The position numbers were made by a program, and so were the translations under genes. 50,033 bases of DNA, taken from NCBI GenBank assembly GCA_028712445.1, contig JAQTPY010000001.1, forward strand, positions 1 through 50,033. Direction: 5' to 3'. The stretch comes from Minisyncoccota bacterium. Its GTDB lineage: Bacteria > Patescibacteriota > Minisyncoccia > Minisyncoccales > RBG-13-42-11. Numbering within the stretch: position 1 is the first letter of the stretch; every line of letters starts with the position of its first letter. The notes under the pieces are model-generated. The model saw nothing but the letters and a program-made list of their open reading frames with translations, did no database searches and was not told the origin of the DNA. Below are positions 13,748-49,820 of this stretch, piece after piece.

Positions 13748-14284
13748 TTAACTTTGCATACAATTGATTTGAGGTTTCTCGGATTCGCTTTGGAAGTGGA
13801 GCCTGCAGAGATAATCTGAATGGCTCTTCTTTATTCTTTTGCTTTCTTCGTCCTCTCCCATCCCGAGAATCTGAGCTGAAATGAGGGCGGCGTTGTCAAA
13901 ACCCGACCTCCCAATTCCAGCCAGGATTACCGGACAACCCGCTGGCGACCGCGCAATGCCCAACATGGCGTCTATTGCGTCCGCGAACTCTTTTGTGGGT
14001 ATCGCCACTCCGATTACCGGCACGCGATATTTGGTTTCTGCGGCGATACTTCCAGGCAGCCTGCCCGACATGCCGGCAGCCCCGATAAAAACTTTTACTC
14101 CATCCGCACGAGCTTGGGCACAGTAACCTCGAAGAATACCGGGATTGCGGTCAGCTGAAATGACTGAAACTTTGTAGCTTATCTGACAGGCCTTCAGAAT
14201 ATTGAAAACCTTTGACTTCTCCAATAAGGGACGGTCAGAGTCGCTTCCGATTATTATGGCAGCTAAATAACTTCTATCTGACAT
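13748..14284 (-). CDS. PurE-like (N5-CAIR mutase family) protein with altered active-site motif
   Basis: IIIGSDSDRPLLEKS, SADRNP, GAAGMSGRLPGSIAAET, NAALISAQIL. Confidence 0.85.
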   Translation of the reverse strand: MSDRSYLAAIIIGSDSDRPLLEKSKVFNILKACQISYKVSVISADRNPGILRGYCAQARADGVKVFIGAAGMSGRLPGSIAAETKYRVPVIGVAIPTKEFADAIDAMLGIARSPAGCPVILAGIGRSGFDNAALISAQILGMGEDEESKRIKKSHSDYLCRLHFQSESEKPQINCMQS

Positions 14285-14293
14285 AAATACCTC

Positions 14294-15637
14294 CTAAATC
14301 TTTACTTTTTCCTCTTTGGCTACCGGAGCTTTAATTCCGAATCTGGCGAAGATGACCGGAATATTCTTGAGATAATGGTCGTAGTCAAAGCACCTCACTA
14401 TCTCTTCTGACGAAAGAAGATTGGTGACTCTGGGATCTGCCTCGAGAATCTTGATGAAATCTTCTTTCTTCTCCCAGGCCTCCAGAGCATCCTCCTTAGC
14501 TATCTTCCTTGCCTGTCGCCGGTCCATTCCTTTCTTGGTCAGGGCAATCATTACGTCTTCAGAAAAAATTGCCCCTTTGGTAATCTTAAGATTCTCCAGC
14601 ATCTTCTCGGTATCTACCCTCAGCCCCACCATTATTTCTGACATCAAGCAGAGGTTGTAATGGATGAACGCCGCAGTCAGGGGAATAATCACCCTTTCAT
14701 TGGCTGACTCATCTAAGCTCCGTTCGTGCCACTGAAGGCTCTGGTTCTCGCCGGCAACAATAGTGAAGACTCTTGGCAACCTGGCCAGAGAGCAGACCCT
14801 TTCTGATTTATTGGGATTGCGCTTAAAAGGCATGGCTGAGGAGCCGCCTTCTGCGGTAAAGGGTTCGCAGACTTCGCTGATTTCTGTCTGTTGAAGCAGC
14901 CTTATTTGGAGGGCGATTTTCTCTAGAGTGTTGCCTATGCCGGCCAGCGCCGTCAGCCATGCGTAATGGCGATCGCGGGCAACGATCTGATTTGAAATCC
15001 TTGCCGACCCTATTCCCAGCATCCTACAAACAATAACCTCGACTTGAGGATCAACGTTGCCGTAGTTGCCGGTTGCTCCGGAAATTTTGCCGACAAAAAA
15101 TCCGGCCTTTCTCTTCCTGAGATTCGAATATTGGCGCTGCAGCTCGTCGGCCCAGTTAAGGATCTTTAAACCGAATGTCATGGGTTCAGCGTGGATCCCG
15201 TGAGTCCGGCCCATCATCATAGCGTACACGTAGGTTGCGGCCATACTCCGAAGATTATTTACGAGATGTGCAAGTTCTTTTTCGATCAAAGCGTTCGATC
15301 TCTGCATCTGAACAGCTCTTGCCGTATCCCAGATATCAAAGGATGTAATGCCGCCGTGGATGAGAGCCGCTGCCTGCTCTGATATGGTCTTTTTGACCAC
15401 GTTGAGGAAGGAGACCATCTCTTGATCGTTTTTCTTATCTTCCTCATCGATCTCGGAAATGGTGAATTTGGCAGTGCGCTTGGCATCAGCCGCCACTCCC
15501 TGAGGAAACTGGCCGAGCATTTCCTGAGCCCTCATAATGAGGAGCTCTATTTCAAGCCAAATGGAGTATCTTGTTTGTCTGGTCCAGATCGCTCCCATCT
15601 CGGGTTTAATATATTTTTCCAATTCCAGTTCCAGCAT
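14294..15637 (-). CDS. purB: Adenylosuccinate lyase
   Basis: MGRTHGIHAEPMTFG, SGATGNYGNVDP, EGGSSAMPFKRNPNKSERV; SD aaggagg upstream. Confidence 0.95.
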   Translation of the reverse strand: MLELELEKYIKPEMGAIWTRQTRYSIWLEIELLIMRAQEMLGQFPQGVAADAKRTAKFTISEIDEEDKKNDQEMVSFLNVVKKTISEQAAALIHGGITSFDIWDTARAVQMQRSNALIEKELAHLVNNLRSMAATYVYAMMMGRTHGIHAEPMTFGLKILNWADELQRQYSNLRKRKAGFFVGKISGATGNYGNVDPQVEVIVCRMLGIGSARISNQIVARDRHYAWLTALAGIGNTLEKIALQIRLLQQTEISEVCEPFTAEGGSSAMPFKRNPNKSERVCSLARLPRVFTIVAGENQSLQWHERSLDESANERVIIPLTAAFIHYNLCLMSEIMVGLRVDTEKMLENLKITKGAIFSEDVMIALTKKGMDRRQARKIAKEDALEAWEKKEDFIKILEADPRVTNLLSSEEIVRCFDYDHYLKNIPVIFARFGIKAPVAKEEKVKI

Positions 15638-15683
15638 TTCAAAACCTCCTTGCTTTCAATATATTTTGACAAAGATCTAGTCC

Positions 15684-15710
15684 ATAGAAAAAGGAGGGAA
15701 ACCTCCTTTC
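15684..15710 (-). terminator. Intrinsic terminator downstream of mtnP-like gene
   Basis: Minus strand aaaggagg-tttc-cctccttt-ttct. Confidence 0.7.
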
Positions 15711-15748
15711 CTTTGAAGCTATCAAATTATTAGATTTTGTCAAAGCCG

Positions 15749-16549
15749 CTATGCTTCAGCTGATTCTAGAGATTTTGAGCAAGAGCAATTCCTCTGAGAG
15801 TTGATCTTAGACAATGAAGAATTCAATATTTTCTTTATCTTTTCTTGGTTTTCTCCCATGATCCTGGCCACCTCCTCGTAGGTGACAGGATGGTCTTTCC
15901 AGCAATCGTAATCTGTCACCATAGCCAAAGACAAATAGCATATTCCCAATTCTTTAGCTAACTGCGCTTCAGGAACCAAAGTCATTCCTATGACATCGGC
16001 AAAATTCATAAAAAACTTTGATTCAGCTTTGGTTGAGAAACGCGGCCCCTCAATGCAGGCATAGGTTCCTGATTCATGGGCAGGAATTTCCAGCTTCTTT
16101 GCTTCCTCAAAGAAAAGACTTCTTAATTCGGGACAAAAAGGGTCAGCTAAAGAAATATGAACTGCAGAATCATCATAAAAAGTATAATCTCTTTTTTTGG
16201 TGAAATCTATAGACTGATCACAAACGACGATGTTTCCTGGCTTGTATTCCTCCTTAAGTGACCCCACCGCACAGATTCCAATTATCCTTTCTACTCCCAA
16301 CTCCTTCAGTGCCCATATATTGGCTTTAGAATTAACCATATGAGGAGGAATCCCATGATTTGCTCCGTGACGAGATAAAAAAGCAATTTTCTGTCCGTTT
16401 AAATCGCTAATGCGAATAGGAGACGACGTGTCGCCAAAAGGCGTTTTAACCTTAATTTCGCCCACTTCTTTAAAGAAATTGGGGTCTTCCAGTCCGCTTC
16501 CTCCGATTATTGCAATTTTTGGGTTCAATCCCGAAGGATTATTTAGCAT
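15749..16549 (-). CDS. mtnP: S-methyl-5'-thioadenosine phosphorylase family protein
   Basis: IAIIGGSGLEDP, FLSRHGANHGIPPHMVNSKANIWALKELG, TYACIEGPRFSTKAE, VIGMTLVPEAQLAKELG. Confidence 0.93.
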   Translation of the reverse strand: MLNNPSGLNPKIAIIGGSGLEDPNFFKEVGEIKVKTPFGDTSSPIRISDLNGQKIAFLSRHGANHGIPPHMVNSKANIWALKELGVERIIGICAVGSLKEEYKPGNIVVCDQSIDFTKKRDYTFYDDSAVHISLADPFCPELRSLFFEEAKKLEIPAHESGTYACIEGPRFSTKAESKFFMNFADVIGMTLVPEAQLAKELGICYLSLAMVTDYDCWKDHPVTYEEVARIMGENQEKIKKILNSSLSKINSQRNCSCSKSLESAEA

Positions 16550-16601
16550 TAATTAAATATTATCTTTTTTCCTAAATTTGTAAATAGAGAAAGGCGTAAT
16601 C

Positions 16602-16629
16602 TTGACATTTTTAGAAAATAATGTAAAAC
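16602..16629 (+). promoter_or_regulatory. Sigma70-type promoter upstream of the IMPase-like gene
   Basis: TTGACA (16602-16607), 16-nt spacer, TAAAAC (16624-16629). Confidence 0.5.
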
Positions 16630-16675
16630 ATATTTAGTACCTTTCGAAATGCATAATGAAAATTTGGAGGTTAAA

Positions 16676-17857
16676 ATGATTGCGAATAAGGAACTCTCTG
16701 TTTATCTATTAGAGGCTACTTTCGAAGCTGAAAAGGCTTTATTGAAATCCCCCACTATAGTTTCCGAAAAAAATGGAAAAGATTTAGTCACTTCGTGGGA
16801 TCTGTCGATCCAAGCAGCTTTGCTTGACTATTTTGAAAGGCAAAGGATAAAAGTCTCCTTCTTGGGAGAGGAAGGCACATATTTGGATGAATGCCCGGAG
16901 ATCGTTTTGCTGGTTGATGAGATGGAGGGGAGCCAGAACGCGATCAACGCCTTGCCATTCGGAATCAATATAGCGGCTGCTCCCTATGGGCCACATCTGA
17001 AAGTCCAAGATTTAGTTGCTTCTGTCGTGGCGAACTTGCGAGACGGAAGAAAGTTTGTCGCAATAAAGGGCGAAGGATTCGGCACAATAGAGGGAAATAC
17101 AAGCGTAAGGAATCCTTTCAAAAAATCGACCGATATCTGGGAGGTCCCGCTTGGGTACATAACTTCTCCCCAACAGCTGAAAAAACAATTCGACGTCTAT
17201 AATTTATTTTCCTCTTTATTCGGACCCCAATATAGAAGCGTGGATTCCACTGGCACAAGGTTGGTGGAAATCACAAGCGCAAACATACGAGCTTATGCCG
17301 ATTATAGGGATGCGACAAAGCCCTGGGATGTATTACCGTCTTGGCTCATTCTTAAAGAAGGCGGGTTTATATGCACAGACATCCTCGGGTTCCATTTCGA
17401 GGAAGCGTCTCTGTGCATTGAAGGGAAGCTCAACATGAACGTGGGTAAGAACTTTCTTGCCACGCTAAGCAAAGACGATCATAAAAAAGTGACTGATGGA
17501 CTTATAAAAATGCGCCTTCTTAGAGCTTTTTTGGACGATATTGAATCCTCATGGTCGCTTTCTGAAAAATGGAGACAAATCACGATTAACATTTTGCCTA
17601 CATTCTTTTTGGATCCCATAAGGTCAGCGAACAATATCCTTAAAGGGCTTACGGACAAAACCCCCGAATTGGTTGGACACTATGTAGCCGAACTGTTCAC
17701 CGAAATCATTCGAGATAAAAAAGAATCTTACGGCTTTATCGAAGAAGCGGATTTATCCTCTTTCAAAAATACCGTAGAATCCTTTTTATGTTCGCTATCT
17801 CCAGACGAAAGATTGAACCGCGGATTCGAAGACAATATTAAACGCCCTTTCAACTAA
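16676..17857 (+). CDS. Divergent inositol-monophosphatase-superfamily protein with long C-terminal extension
   Basis: FLGEEG, LLVDEMEGSQNAIN, GTRLVEITSANIRAYADYRDATKPWDVLPSWLILKEGG. ATG at 16676 has ggagg upstream and is preferred over 16649. Confidence 0.7.
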   Translation: MIANKELSVYLLEATFEAEKALLKSPTIVSEKNGKDLVTSWDLSIQAALLDYFERQRIKVSFLGEEGTYLDECPEIVLLVDEMEGSQNAINALPFGINIAAAPYGPHLKVQDLVASVVANLRDGRKFVAIKGEGFGTIEGNTSVRNPFKKSTDIWEVPLGYITSPQQLKKQFDVYNLFSSLFGPQYRSVDSTGTRLVEITSANIRAYADYRDATKPWDVLPSWLILKEGGFICTDILGFHFEEASLCIEGKLNMNVGKNFLATLSKDDHKKVTDGLIKMRLLRAFLDDIESSWSLSEKWRQITINILPTFFLDPIRSANNILKGLTDKTPELVGHYVAELFTEIIRDKKESYGFIEEADLSSFKNTVESFLCSLSPDERLNRGFEDNIKRPFN

Positions 17858-43917: not shown

Positions 43918-44799
43918 TTAGACAATCGGAGGATTCCAAATTTTGGGAATAACGGGCAACTCTCCGATGTTAACATCTATTCTTTTAACTCCTTCGTTTT
44001 CTCTTATCTCTTTGGAGATGAGTCTTTCGATCTGAGTTGTGTTGGAAGCCACGACATCGATTACAAGATTGTAACTTCCTGAGGTTTTAACTAAGTTATA
44101 AACTAAAGGAGACTTTTCCAGCCTTTCAGCTAAAGAATTTAGCGCCTTTTCTTCTGCCTCGATGCTGATATGGGCGCTAACTGAATTAAAAGTCTCTATT
44201 CTTAAGCCAGCCTGAATCCTCAAGACGCCTTGGGTTATTAATTTTTCTACCCTATTTTTAATTCCAACAGGGCTAAGACCTGTTTTTTTGGCGATCTCGA
44301 CAAATGGTTTTCTGCCGTCCTGGACCAAAGACTTGATTATTTCAAGATCAAGACCGTCTATCTGGTTTAAGCTCCAAGGAGCAAAAACATTATACCCCTC
44401 CACTGAAAAATCAGCCAAGTCAAGACGGTCTCTCAGTGCGGCAAACTTGATATCTTTGATTCCCAACCTATCTTTCTTTTGCCTTATGATTTCCATGACT
44501 TTTTTGTATGCCTTCCCGGTAATAATATCATTTTCAGTTATTAAAACTCTTCTGCCCCTTAACTTCTCTTCTTCTAATCCCTCTCCATCATCATTCATGG
44601 TTGTGAATTCTATCTTTTTGTTATTGAGCCATTGGCAAAGAGCTTCTCCGTAGAAAACTCCTTCATCTCTCAAGCCAATAATACATCCTTTATCTGATCC
44701 AAAATATTGCTCGGCTTTCTTTCCAAGTCCATCAATGAATTTTTTTATAAATTCCTCTCCATAAATTGGCTTATATTTAAAAGGAGTATTTTTCACCAT
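43918..44799 (-). CDS. Fusion: N-terminal phosphoribosyltransferase-like domain + C-terminal Lrp/AsnC HTH and RAM domains
   Basis: LRGRRVLITENDIITGKAYKKVMEII (PRPP-loop-like) then LDLEIIKSLVQDGRKPFVEIAKKTGLSPVGIKNRVEKLITQGVLR (AsnC HTH) and KTSGSYNLVIDVVASNTTQIERLI (RAM-like). Confidence 0.8.
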   Translation of the reverse strand: MVKNTPFKYKPIYGEEFIKKFIDGLGKKAEQYFGSDKGCIIGLRDEGVFYGEALCQWLNNKKIEFTTMNDDGEGLEEEKLRGRRVLITENDIITGKAYKKVMEIIRQKKDRLGIKDIKFAALRDRLDLADFSVEGYNVFAPWSLNQIDGLDLEIIKSLVQDGRKPFVEIAKKTGLSPVGIKNRVEKLITQGVLRIQAGLRIETFNSVSAHISIEAEEKALNSLAERLEKSPLVYNLVKTSGSYNLVIDVVASNTTQIERLISKEIRENEGVKRIDVNIGELPVIPKIWNPPIV

Positions 44800-45664
44800 A
44801 TTTTTTAATATAATATTTAATTATCTCGTCTCTAAGTTGAGGAGTGGATGTGGCAATCAGTAAATCAACTTTATCGTGCTGTCTTCCTGGAATAAATTCA
44901 TAATCCTTGTATTTTCCATCAATGTCAATTGTTATCACTTCACAGCCGGTATTCTTTGCGATAAGGAAACCCGGATCAATCTCGGATCGAGGCTCGTCAA
45001 ACATAATATAGGCGTCAATCAAGCCCGAGGCCAGATAAGAATAAATGAATGATCCTCCTTGAGGATAAAGCAAAGCTTTAGAATGCAGTTTTTTTAACAA
45101 ATCACTGAATATGTCTAAGAATTTTATTGAGTATTGTGAACTCATTACGTAACTGGCTATCACAAGAGGTTCAGACAGACTCTTTCTTTTCGAAGGAATC
45201 ATTTCTTTGATATTCCCAGTTTTCGTATCCAGAATATAATTTTCCCCCAATGCCGAAATATAAAGTTTTTCGTTCAAAATGTCAGCTACACCGCCGCAAA
45301 TAGGAGTTAATTTCTCATCAAAGAAACTCAAAGCCGTATACCAGTTGTGTTCAAACCCTCTTAAATAAAGGACTGATCCATCAAAGGGATCAATTGAACC
45401 ATAGACTTCAGGATTCTCGCTGGTTTTAATGTCCCGGCCATCCGGCTCAGAAAAAGCATGGATTTTAATCTTATATTTTTTTACCAATTTAGCTAAAATC
45501 TCCTCGCCCACTCTGTCTATCCCTATCTCAACATCTTCCGGCCTGTTTATTATATCTCCTAAAATTTCCCTTCCTCCGTTGGTTAAAGAGATTTTTTTTA
45601 CTTCAGCAATCGCCTCAGTGAGATAATCTACTAGCAAATTTTTTAATATTTTAGGGTCTACCAT
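44777..45664 (-). CDS. Inositol monophosphatase/FBPase superfamily phosphatase
   Basis: GSIDPFDGSVLYLRGF, SEIDPGFLIAKNTGCEVITIDG-like core. Confidence 0.82.
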   Translation of the reverse strand: MVDPKILKNLLVDYLTEAIAEVKKISLTNGGREILGDIINRPEDVEIGIDRVGEEILAKLVKKYKIKIHAFSEPDGRDIKTSENPEVYGSIDPFDGSVLYLRGFEHNWYTALSFFDEKLTPICGGVADILNEKLYISALGENYILDTKTGNIKEMIPSKRKSLSEPLVIASYVMSSQYSIKFLDIFSDLLKKLHSKALLYPQGGSFIYSYLASGLIDAYIMFDEPRSEIDPGFLIAKNTGCEVITIDIDGKYKDYEFIPGRQHDKVDLLIATSTPQLRDEIIKYYIKKYGEKYSF

Positions 45665-45709: not shown

Positions 45710-46804
45710 TCAATCTAAAACCTTGTCCAGGACGGAAATAAGTTTTTCAGTATCTTCCGATGTTCCGATGCTTATCCTTAAGGAAATTTTTCTGTCGGGG
45801 TCTTCTTTCGGCCTGGTTAATATTTTCTCGGCTTTCAGTTTCTCCATTAGTTTGGTTGGATCTGCAAGGCGCAAAAATAAATAGTTGGCCCGGCTTGGGA
45901 AAAACCCCACACCTTTTCCGCGAAGATAAGCTTCCAGCTTAGGCTTGGATATTTCCATTACTTCTTTTGCATAATCTTCCGCGTATCTTTTGTTCTTCAA
46001 AGCTGCTAAAATCGCCACTTTTGCGAACATGTTAACGTCATAAGGGCCCCTTACCTTCAACAGTTCCTGAATATTGTTTTCTCGGGATAAAACATAACCT
46101 GCTCTTGCAGACACTAAACCAAACGCCTTTGCAAAAGTTCTAATGATGTATAAATTACTGTATTTATCTATAAAATCCTTTGCTGTTATTTTGGAAAATT
46201 CAAAATAAGCTTCATCGTGCATAACAGTAATGTCTTTTTCCTGAGCTTTTTTCAGAATCTTTTCTACATCTTCAAGAGAGGTTGGCGACCCTAAAGGATT
46301 ATTGGGATTGCAAAGTATAACAAGCCTGACTTTTTCATCTTCCAGCATTTTTAAAGTTTCTTCTAAAGGAAAACTTCCGTCATCTCCATACCTGGGCTCC
46401 AGTATTTCCGCTCCCTGAATACCGCTTGACTGATAATGCATGGCAAAGGAAGGAAACGGAATTATCACCCTGTCCCCCTCGTCTAGACAGGACCGGCAAA
46501 TAACGTCTATTCCCTGGTCTCCACCGTTTGTCACCATCGCTCTCCCGTTTTTTACCCCCGCATATTCAGCGATTTTCTCTTCAAGATTACCATATTCAGG
46601 ATAAACTTGAATTCTGTCTAAATCGATAAAATCTTTTAAAGCTTTCTTTACCTCAGGGCTGGGACCGGTCGTTCTTTCACTAAAATCTAACAACAAATAA
46701 TCTTTCTCGCTCCTTCCTTCGAGCGGGGGCTTGTAATGTCCCATTTTAGTTACTCTTTTTTTGATAGCCATAAAATTCTTAAAGTAATGCCAAAATCCAA
46801 ACAA
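45710..46804 (-). CDS. Class I/II PLP aminotransferase, histidinol-phosphate aminotransferase (HisC)-like
   Basis: RIQVYPEYGNLEEKIAEYAGV, LCNPNNPLGSPTS, DEAYFEFS, RTFAKAFGLVSARAGYVLS, RISIGT. Confidence 0.88.
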   Translation of the reverse strand: MFGFWHYFKNFMAIKKRVTKMGHYKPPLEGRSEKDYLLLDFSERTTGPSPEVKKALKDFIDLDRIQVYPEYGNLEEKIAEYAGVKNGRAMVTNGGDQGIDVICRSCLDEGDRVIIPFPSFAMHYQSSGIQGAEILEPRYGDDGSFPLEETLKMLEDEKVRLVILCNPNNPLGSPTSLEDVEKILKKAQEKDITVMHDEAYFEFSKITAKDFIDKYSNLYIIRTFAKAFGLVSARAGYVLSRENNIQELLKVRGPYDVNMFAKVAILAALKNKRYAEDYAKEVMEISKPKLEAYLRGKGVGFFPSRANYLFLRLADPTKLMEKLKAEKILTRPKEDPDRKISLRISIGTSEDTEKLISVLDKVLD

Positions 46805-46897
46805 ATCCTTTGCGACATAATATTTTAGTTTAATAATTCAAGATGAAATTATGATTAATTTTTTATCTATTTTTTTCTGCTTTATTTTACAAGATAT

Positions 46898-46925
46898 TTG
46901 ACAATTTATCAAGATTGTTTAGTGT
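46898..46925 (+). promoter_or_regulatory. Possible promoter for the HisB-like gene
   Basis: TTGACA (46898-46903), 16-nt spacer, weak TAGTGT. Confidence 0.35.
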
Positions 46926-46963
46926 GGTGATAGCTAATAACTTTGACAACTTAAGGAGGAGAA

Positions 46964-47572
46964 GTGAAAAACCGTGTAAGTTGCGTTCGGAGAAAAACTG
47001 TTGAAGTGGACATCTTAGTTGAGCTATGTCTTGACGACCCATCAGATCATCAGCTTTCGATAGTTGCGAAAAAAGATGAAGTGGGTTTCGGCCTATCAGC
47101 AATCAATCTATTTGAACATCTGTTCGCTCAGATCTACCACCATGGAAAATTAGGAGGAAAAATATTGGGAGAGGGAGATCTGCCCCATCATCTGATAGAA
47201 GATATTGGCATTTCTTTTGGTCAAGCCTTTAAAGAATCTCTGGGTGACAGAAAAGGAATAAGGCGGTTTGAAAGCATATCTGTTCCTTTCGAGGGAAGTC
47301 TAGCTGAAGTATCAGTCGATCTCAGTGGCCGCGGATACGCGTGCCTTAACTTTCAAGACGCTGACGATAAAACCCTTGCCGGAGTGGCCCAGCATTTCTT
47401 CGAAGGCGTGGCGCTGAATGGAGGATTTAATCTTTACGGAAAGATAATGACAGTAGGGACTCTCCGCAACGACCATCACAAGCTGGAAGCCTTCTGTAAG
47501 GCATTCGGCACCGTACTACACAGAGCTACCAGGATAGTTGACGCAAGCATTCCGAGCACAAAAGGAATATAA
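46964..47572 (+). CDS. Imidazoleglycerol-phosphate dehydratase (HisB)-like protein, GTG start
   Basis: EHLF, LPHHLIEDIGISFGQAFKESLGDRKGIRRF, VSVDLSGRGY, AQHFFEGVA, DHHKLEAFCKAFGTVLHRA, IPSTKG; SD aaggagga. Confidence 0.87.
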   Translation: MKNRVSCVRRKTVEVDILVELCLDDPSDHQLSIVAKKDEVGFGLSAINLFEHLFAQIYHHGKLGGKILGEGDLPHHLIEDIGISFGQAFKESLGDRKGIRRFESISVPFEGSLAEVSVDLSGRGYACLNFQDADDKTLAGVAQHFFEGVALNGGFNLYGKIMTVGTLRNDHHKLEAFCKAFGTVLHRATRIVDASIPSTKGI

Positions 47573-48691: not shown

Positions 48692-49681
48692 TCAGACATT
48701 CCTGGTTAAAATCTTTTTTAATTTTCTGATTCCCCGGACTCTTTTTAAAACATATTCTTTAAAATATTTTTTCCCTTTAGAAGAATCCAGACTGTGATAT
48801 TTCACTATTCCCCACCACAACATCACCATTACATTAACCAACGCTCCCCAATAAATTGTTTCCTTATTTAAATTTCTTCCATAGATTTTCCCCATCTTTT
48901 CAAGAATCCTTTCAAACAATCTAAAACTCATTGGTTTCTTTTGAAAAAGATTGCCACCCAAAATTATTCCCAGATCATAATGCAAGCCATCTCTCATGTT
49001 GCAGCCGGCGTATTCGAAATCTATGAGATAAACTTTGCCGTTTTTAGCAAGTCTCAGATTTTCAAAGATTAAATCGTTATGAGTCGAAATCTTTCCTCCA
49101 AAAGAAAGCTTTTTCTTGGCAATTTCCTCGACCGTTTCAATTTGTCTAACATCTTCTTTGGTCAATAGTCCTTCTAAATTATGCTCTTTTGCTTGTCTTT
49201 TATATTTTTCGACTTCATCTCTAAAAACATCATACGGGTTAACAAATCTAACTCCGCTTGAATGAAAAGAATGAAGGGTTCTTATTAAAGATTCTTGCGT
49301 CTTTTGATTTTTCAAATCATTTCCGTCGATGTCTTTACCATCTATATATTCCATGACCATGGTTCCGTCAGGAAAATCAAATCTTTCTGCAGAATTCAGG
49401 ATATTTTTCTTGTTTAGAATATAAACAAAAAATCGAGGAACGACTCCTTTTAGATTTCTATTCCTGGTAATGGCTAAAATATTTTTCCCCTCAAACCCTC
49501 TGTTTACAATGTCTTTTCTTTCCCACGGGAGGCGGACGAAAAACTTTTTTCCTTTGAATTCAACTGTCCAGTTGCGATTGGTCTGACCCCCGGCTCTTTT
49601 GATCTTTAAAGGGCCTTTTCCCCACTCTTTGTCCAATTTTTTAATCAATTCAATATCTTTTTCCATAAACTCCTTTAACAA
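48692..49681 (-). CDS. Choline kinase / aminoglycoside phosphotransferase-like kinase
   Basis: GGQTNRNWTVEFKGKKFFVRLP, STHNDLIFENLRLAKNGKVYLIDFEYAGCNMRDGLHYDLG. Confidence 0.88.
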   Translation of the reverse strand: MLKEFMEKDIELIKKLDKEWGKGPLKIKRAGGQTNRNWTVEFKGKKFFVRLPWERKDIVNRGFEGKNILAITRNRNLKGVVPRFFVYILNKKNILNSAERFDFPDGTMVMEYIDGKDIDGNDLKNQKTQESLIRTLHSFHSSGVRFVNPYDVFRDEVEKYKRQAKEHNLEGLLTKEDVRQIETVEEIAKKKLSFGGKISTHNDLIFENLRLAKNGKVYLIDFEYAGCNMRDGLHYDLGIILGGNLFQKKPMSFRLFERILEKMGKIYGRNLNKETIYWGALVNVMVMLWWGIVKYHSLDSSKGKKYFKEYVLKRVRGIRKLKKILTRNV

Positions 49682-49748: not shown

Positions 49749-49820
49749 GGCGGCTATGGTGTAATGGCAGCACTAGAACCTGTGGAGTTCTCAGAGGCAG
49801 TTCAAATCTGCTTAGCCGCC
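49749..49820 (+). tRNA. tRNA-His(GUG), including G-1; CCA not encoded
   Basis: gcggcta/tagccgc acceptor with G-1:C73, anticodon arm agaac-ctGTGga-gttct, T-arm gcag-ttcaaat-ctgc. Confidence 0.92.

Follow-up and report, generated by a model that had tools for sequence, protein, structure and literature searches.

The gene at 43918 to 44799 of the window (the whole stretch of 50,033 nucleotides that was analysed, from a Minisyncoccota bacterium) raises the question of what a phosphoribosyltransferase (PRT) domain does in front of an Lrp-type regulator, and which genes such a protein controls. A preliminary description had laid the protein out as a PRTase-like domain followed by an Lrp helix-turn-helix (HTH) and a RAM domain. 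Pfam and family profiles return the same order, and the motif TENDIITGKA stands in the window protein as it was written there. The ORF has an ATG start and overlaps by 23 bases the 3' end of the upstream gene of the IMPase (inositol monophosphatase) family. Its features are as follows.

43918..44799, minus strand: PRT-Lrp fusion regulator, an ORF of 293 aa with orthologues in the order
44362..44799, minus strand: degenerate type I PRT domain of the N-terminal half, residues 1-146 (~15-142), from PF00156, the PyrR profile and hhalign
44647..44670, minus strand: position of the PPi loop, RDEGVFYG, residues 44-51, with acidic instead of basic residues
44503..44538, minus strand: ribose-5-phosphate (PRPP) loop TENDIITGKAYK, residues 88-99, with TGK kept and the second acid and the base position altered
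44218..44361, minus strand: AsnC-type HTH, residues 147-194, the HTH_24 match ending at 194
43966..44166, minus strand: RAM (AsnC_trans_reg) domain, residues 212-278, from Pfam

Identity and distribution of the fusion

The C-terminal half is readily assigned. Pfam searches with the window protein gave HTH_AsnC (PF13404) at 6.8e-10 over residues 147-187 and AsnC_trans_reg (PF01037) at 9.5e-10 over residues 212-278, both over the cut-off, and the regulator matched Lrp structures in the PDB down to 5e-22. The RAM motif reads G-x-x-N-L in most members of the family, presumably a D to N change relative to the usual Lrp motif.

The N-terminal domain is recognised through its family. The full-length window protein had no Pfam match over this part, a phmmer search of the PDB gave weak HPRT matches (residues 13-109, E about 0.1), and PF00156 (Pribosyltran) reached E=0.066 with the window protein alone. 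The same model matched 16 of 17 orthologous N-domains, the best at 5.2e-8, and in a genome scan it matched six family copies at model positions ~77-130, one of which passes the Pfam cut-off. When a family profile was searched against the PDB, PyrR and HPRT aligned in register at about 1e-4 to 1e-3, the best matches being to PyrR (1.1e-4 to 2e-3). Comparison by hhalign with the PRTases of relatives gave a probability of 87% (E 4.4e-6), and 12 unrelated families used as controls reached at most 5.7%. AlphaFold models built from one sequence had low confidence, with a mean pLDDT of 57.8 for the full-length regulator and 52.0 for the N-domain; a Foldseek search with this low-confidence N-domain model gave no match at E<=0.001, PyrR and HPRT chains being among the weak matches. 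These profile comparisons identify residues ~15-142 as a type I PRT domain in degenerate form, nearest to PyrR; the preliminary description had proposed a type I PRT-like domain here.

The fusion is real and lineage-restricted. Twenty of 147 relatives match the regulator: 17 with the PRT N-domain, two with a different N-domain (G044 and G118) and one as a plain Lrp protein (G141). The 17 PRT-Lrp genomes carry 18 copies, since one of them (G008) has two. Across the order the N-domain is found in 26 of 247 genomes, the window's included, and it sits in a longer frame in all of these but one, where the contig ends. Samples of 384 genomes from the class and 380 from the phylum contained no PRT-Lrp protein outside the order, and viral contigs held no relative of the regulator. 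Wider genome contigs gave matches only to the Lrp half, in archaea; among plasmids 153 records match, none covering 80% of the query, and the 8 listed match it from residue 122 onward, roughly half its length. In these genome surveys the architecture is confined to one order and is not widespread. A literature search largely confined to papers outside subscription yielded no description of a PRT-Lrp or HisG-Lrp fusion, and the literature on CPR histidine regulators yielded nothing on the PRT-Lrp architecture; within this limited search, on which the novelty of the PRT and Lrp pairing rests, we could not find a precedent.

Catalytic features and the phosphate loop

We counted residues in the PRT domain over 26 family sequences. 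The PRPP-loop consensus is VDNDI(V/I)TGKA: the second acid is changed from D to N in 23/26, and T94 is present in 22/26, G95 in 26/26 and K96 in 25/26. At the PPi loop, 25/26 sequences have P or D at position 45 and all 26 have D, E or N at position 46, so that where PyrR has K-T-R-G the fusion has D/P-D/E/N-G, without basic residues. The stretch from the second strand to the PRPP loop is also shorter than in PyrR, shortening the flexible catalytic loop. The combination of two PRPP-loop acids, a PPi-loop basic residue and a flexible loop that marks an active type I PRT is absent. An intact PRPP site in the N-domain was set aside on these counts. The PRT half keeps the T-G-K loop, which holds a 5'-phosphate, and has lost the flexible catalytic loop, the second acid for ribose and the basic residues of the PPi loop; it is probably a sensor and not an enzyme.

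What remains of the pocket is the better-conserved part of the domain. Mean entropy was 0.82 in three pocket segments against 1.28 in the rest of the PRT domain, and a value that low came up in 1 of 126 circular shifts, which is the observed placement itself; the segments were chosen with the PyrR alignment and the motif as guides, once the family alignment had been seen, and the comparison is descriptive. In two copies (L015 and L016) the PRT loop has decayed further than in other members.

A probable domain exchange, gene neighbourhood and histidine genes

In G044 and G118 a HisG-like domain is joined to an Lrp half of the same family (L018 937-2082 and L019 826-1980). It matches TIGR00070 at 4e-27 and HisG structures in the PDB to 1.4e-15, and its PRPP loop is degenerate, reading SRIGNIL or SRRGDVL against TETGASL in two HisG copies from relatives. 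Like the PRT-Lrp genes, from which they differ in the N-domain, these fusions lie upstream of a greA-like gene; both are near argG, and in G044 an argH-like gene is also present. A tree built from Lrp halves pairs the two HisG fusions (99/97) and nests them among PRT-Lrp rows, within an inner clade supported at 80/86, and in 0 of 200 bootstrap trees did PRT-Lrp form one side of a branch. The tree is compatible with replacement of the PRT domain by a HisG-like one, the order of gain depending on the root. Separate HisG-like genes were also seen. In G023 (L168 6668-7549) a stand-alone HisG-like protein without a TG loop is encoded beside genes resembling argG and argH, with a greA-like gene downstream. 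In G091 (L162 9359-11125) two HisG-like genes stand in tandem, one of them altered in its N-terminal PKG motif, and their his cluster also includes a PRPP-synthetase-like gene.

A hisC-IMPase-regulator operon in the window has the regulator as its last gene, with hisB divergent.

44777..45664, minus strand: IMPase-family phosphatase, PF00459 3.1e-11, a possible HisN
45710..46804, minus strand: HisC-like aminotransferase, TIGR01141 3.8e-73, below its cut-off; true start likely about 46771 from orthologue comparison
46805..46963, no strand: intergenic region between the divergent hisC and hisB, a candidate operator region by position
46964..47572, plus strand: HisB-like imidazoleglycerol-phosphate dehydratase, PF00475 5.1e-32
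48692..49681, minus strand: choline-kinase/APH-family kinase, PF01633 1.1e-11, recurring near hisB in relatives

The order kinase-hisB-hisC-IMPase-regulator recurs in relatives. In a hand tally of the 27 regulator loci, which come from 26 genomes, the IMPase gene adjoins the regulator in 20 and is its most constant neighbour; hisB falls inside the inspected stretch in 13, several loci have no his gene close by, and a greA-like gene usually follows the regulator, several hundred bases away. A by-eye reading of the regions upstream of family members revealed no common operator. Three related genomes, G098, G145 and G510 (L038, L040, L169), have a groES-groEL-IMPase-regulator run, GroES and GroEL being named by eye. 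Elsewhere in the window, a tRNA gene at 49750-49820 (plus strand) is the sole Rfam match nearby, and PurE-like, adenylosuccinate-lyase-like, nucleoside-phosphorylase-family and second IMPase-family genes cluster at 13748-17857.

Beyond adjacency, the regulator co-occurs with histidine genes. PF00475 (hisB) is found in 12 of the 147 genomes, and 11 of these 12 carry PRT-Lrp, as compared with 17/147 overall. Fisher tests over the 147 genomes gave p=1.2e-11 for hisB, 6e-4 for hisD and 0.004 for hisG (HisG-Lrp fusions excluded), values that overstate independence, the genomes being related and their shared ancestry ignored. Since hisB is missing from 6 of the 17 regulator genomes in this set, and his genes are lacking around several loci, histidine cannot be the only target.

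The window's genome (completeness listed as 100) had no match to HisG, His_biosynth (HisA/F), HisD, PRA-CH (HisI) or Pribosyltran_N, nor to the PRPP synthetase model PF13793; among the 17 regulator genomes, 3 match this model and 14 do not. The window retains hisB and hisC though HisG, HisA/F, HisD and HisI were not detected in the genome; by eye, both HHxxE metal motifs are present in HisB, as is the AKAFG lysine region (PLP motif) in HisC.

Function, rival readings and known systems

The reading we prefer, at a probability of about one half, is that a catalytically dead PyrR/HPRT-like sensor has been placed on an Lrp/AsnC regulator that controls hisC, the IMPase gene, hisB and itself. What the data show is the architecture, the lost catalytic features, the recurring neighbourhood and the association with hisB. 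For the DNA targets, the identity of the ligand and the combination of the two inputs, we infer the following scheme. The protein would be a one-component Lrp/AsnC transcription regulator whose HTH binds DNA. Its RAM domain would assemble the oligomer and, by analogy with the Lrp family, probably bind an amino acid, while the dead PRT domain may use the kept TGK loop to bind a ligand of 5'-phosphorylated ribosyl or of nucleotide type. The most likely targets would be the co-transcribed hisC and IMPase genes, the divergent hisB and the regulator's own gene; the protein would then regulate a (reduced) histidine pathway.

To judge from the residues that remain, a nucleotide (AMP or ppGpp, for example) or a phosphoester of the pathway, such as imidazoleglycerol phosphate, may fit the loop at least as well as PRPP. 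PRPP is possible as a ligand, and we do not favour it because neither PRPP synthetase nor HisG was detected in the genome and the PPi-loop basic residues are lost. The earlier suggestion of a phosphoribosyl compound as the signal is to that extent divided: it is plausible in general, the 5'-phosphate loop being better conserved than the remainder of the domain, and for PRPP itself the points just given speak against it.

A PRT domain that reads PRPP itself, on the pattern of B. subtilis PurR, and reports substrate supply for histidine while the RAM domain reads histidine would suit the PRT fold (by sequence), the TGK loop and those relatives in which hisG and a PRPP-synthetase-like gene adjoin the his genes. 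The acidic residues in place of the PPi-loop basic ones, and a PRPP synthetase not found in 14 of 17 regulator genomes, with HisG not found in the window's own, make this unlikely. We also doubt that the adjacent IMPase-family phosphatase, or some wider set, is the main target with the his genes as passengers. The constancy of the IMPase neighbour, which outnumbers the his genes at these loci, and the groES-groEL runs speak for it; against it, the regulator accompanies hisB in all but one of the hisB genomes, even in G098, where the two lie on different contigs.

The loss of catalytic features, and the further decay in L015 and L016, would suit a PRT domain that binds no small molecule and serves structure or oligomerisation, leaving control to the RAM domain alone. 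The putative pocket, however, is the best-conserved part of the domain, and two genomes have swapped the PRT for a HisG-like domain instead of simply losing it, so that we rate this reading as distinctly improbable. A working phosphoribosyltransferase, making the protein a bifunctional enzyme-regulator like PyrR, would explain why the best profile match is to a protein named as bifunctional; with the second acid, the PPi-loop basic residues and the flexible loop all lost, we give it very little credence.

Going beyond the preferred reading of a dead PRT sensor, we tentatively suggest a lineage-specific Lrp family with an exchangeable dead-enzyme sensor (PyrR-like PRT or HisG-like) that would take in phosphoribosyl or nucleotide signals together with amino-acid signals, for residual amino-acid pathways in reduced genomes. 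If this is true, the PRT-first, Lrp-last layout joins the few known ways in which metabolic enzymes become gene switches, the natural swap from PRT to HisG-like domain hints at what the sensor reads, and the family draws attention to partial sets of histidine genes under regulation in reduced genomes.

Among known systems, the Lrp/AsnC (feast/famine) regulators, such as PH0140 and LrpA, have an HTH and a RAM domain alike in order and length to those of the fusion, which bears the PRT domain in addition and whose Lrp half sits on a long branch relative to the sampled archaeal Lrps. PyrR provides the nearest solved PRT structures by profile, aligned through the AVL.DR stretch beyond the PRPP loop; unlike the fusion, it has neither HTH nor RAM domain. 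PyrR acts on RNA. Archaeal GfcR, according to the preliminary description, combines a PRTase with an HTH in the opposite order to the fusion and lacks a RAM domain.

B. subtilis PurR offers a precedent for a catalytically dead PRT domain that serves to bind effectors (PMC8789054). It has an N-terminal wHTH and a C-terminal PRT domain without enzyme activity, at whose loop III the 5'-phosphates of PRPP and ppGpp overlap (PMC8789054); this agrees with the preliminary description, which had noted a domain order opposite to that of the fusion. PurR binds PRPP, whereas the PPi loop of the fusion is lost. Like PurR, the fusion joins an inactive PRT domain to a DNA-binding HTH; unlike PurR, it places the PRT domain first, its HTH is of the AsnC type, and it carries a RAM domain, which PurR lacks.
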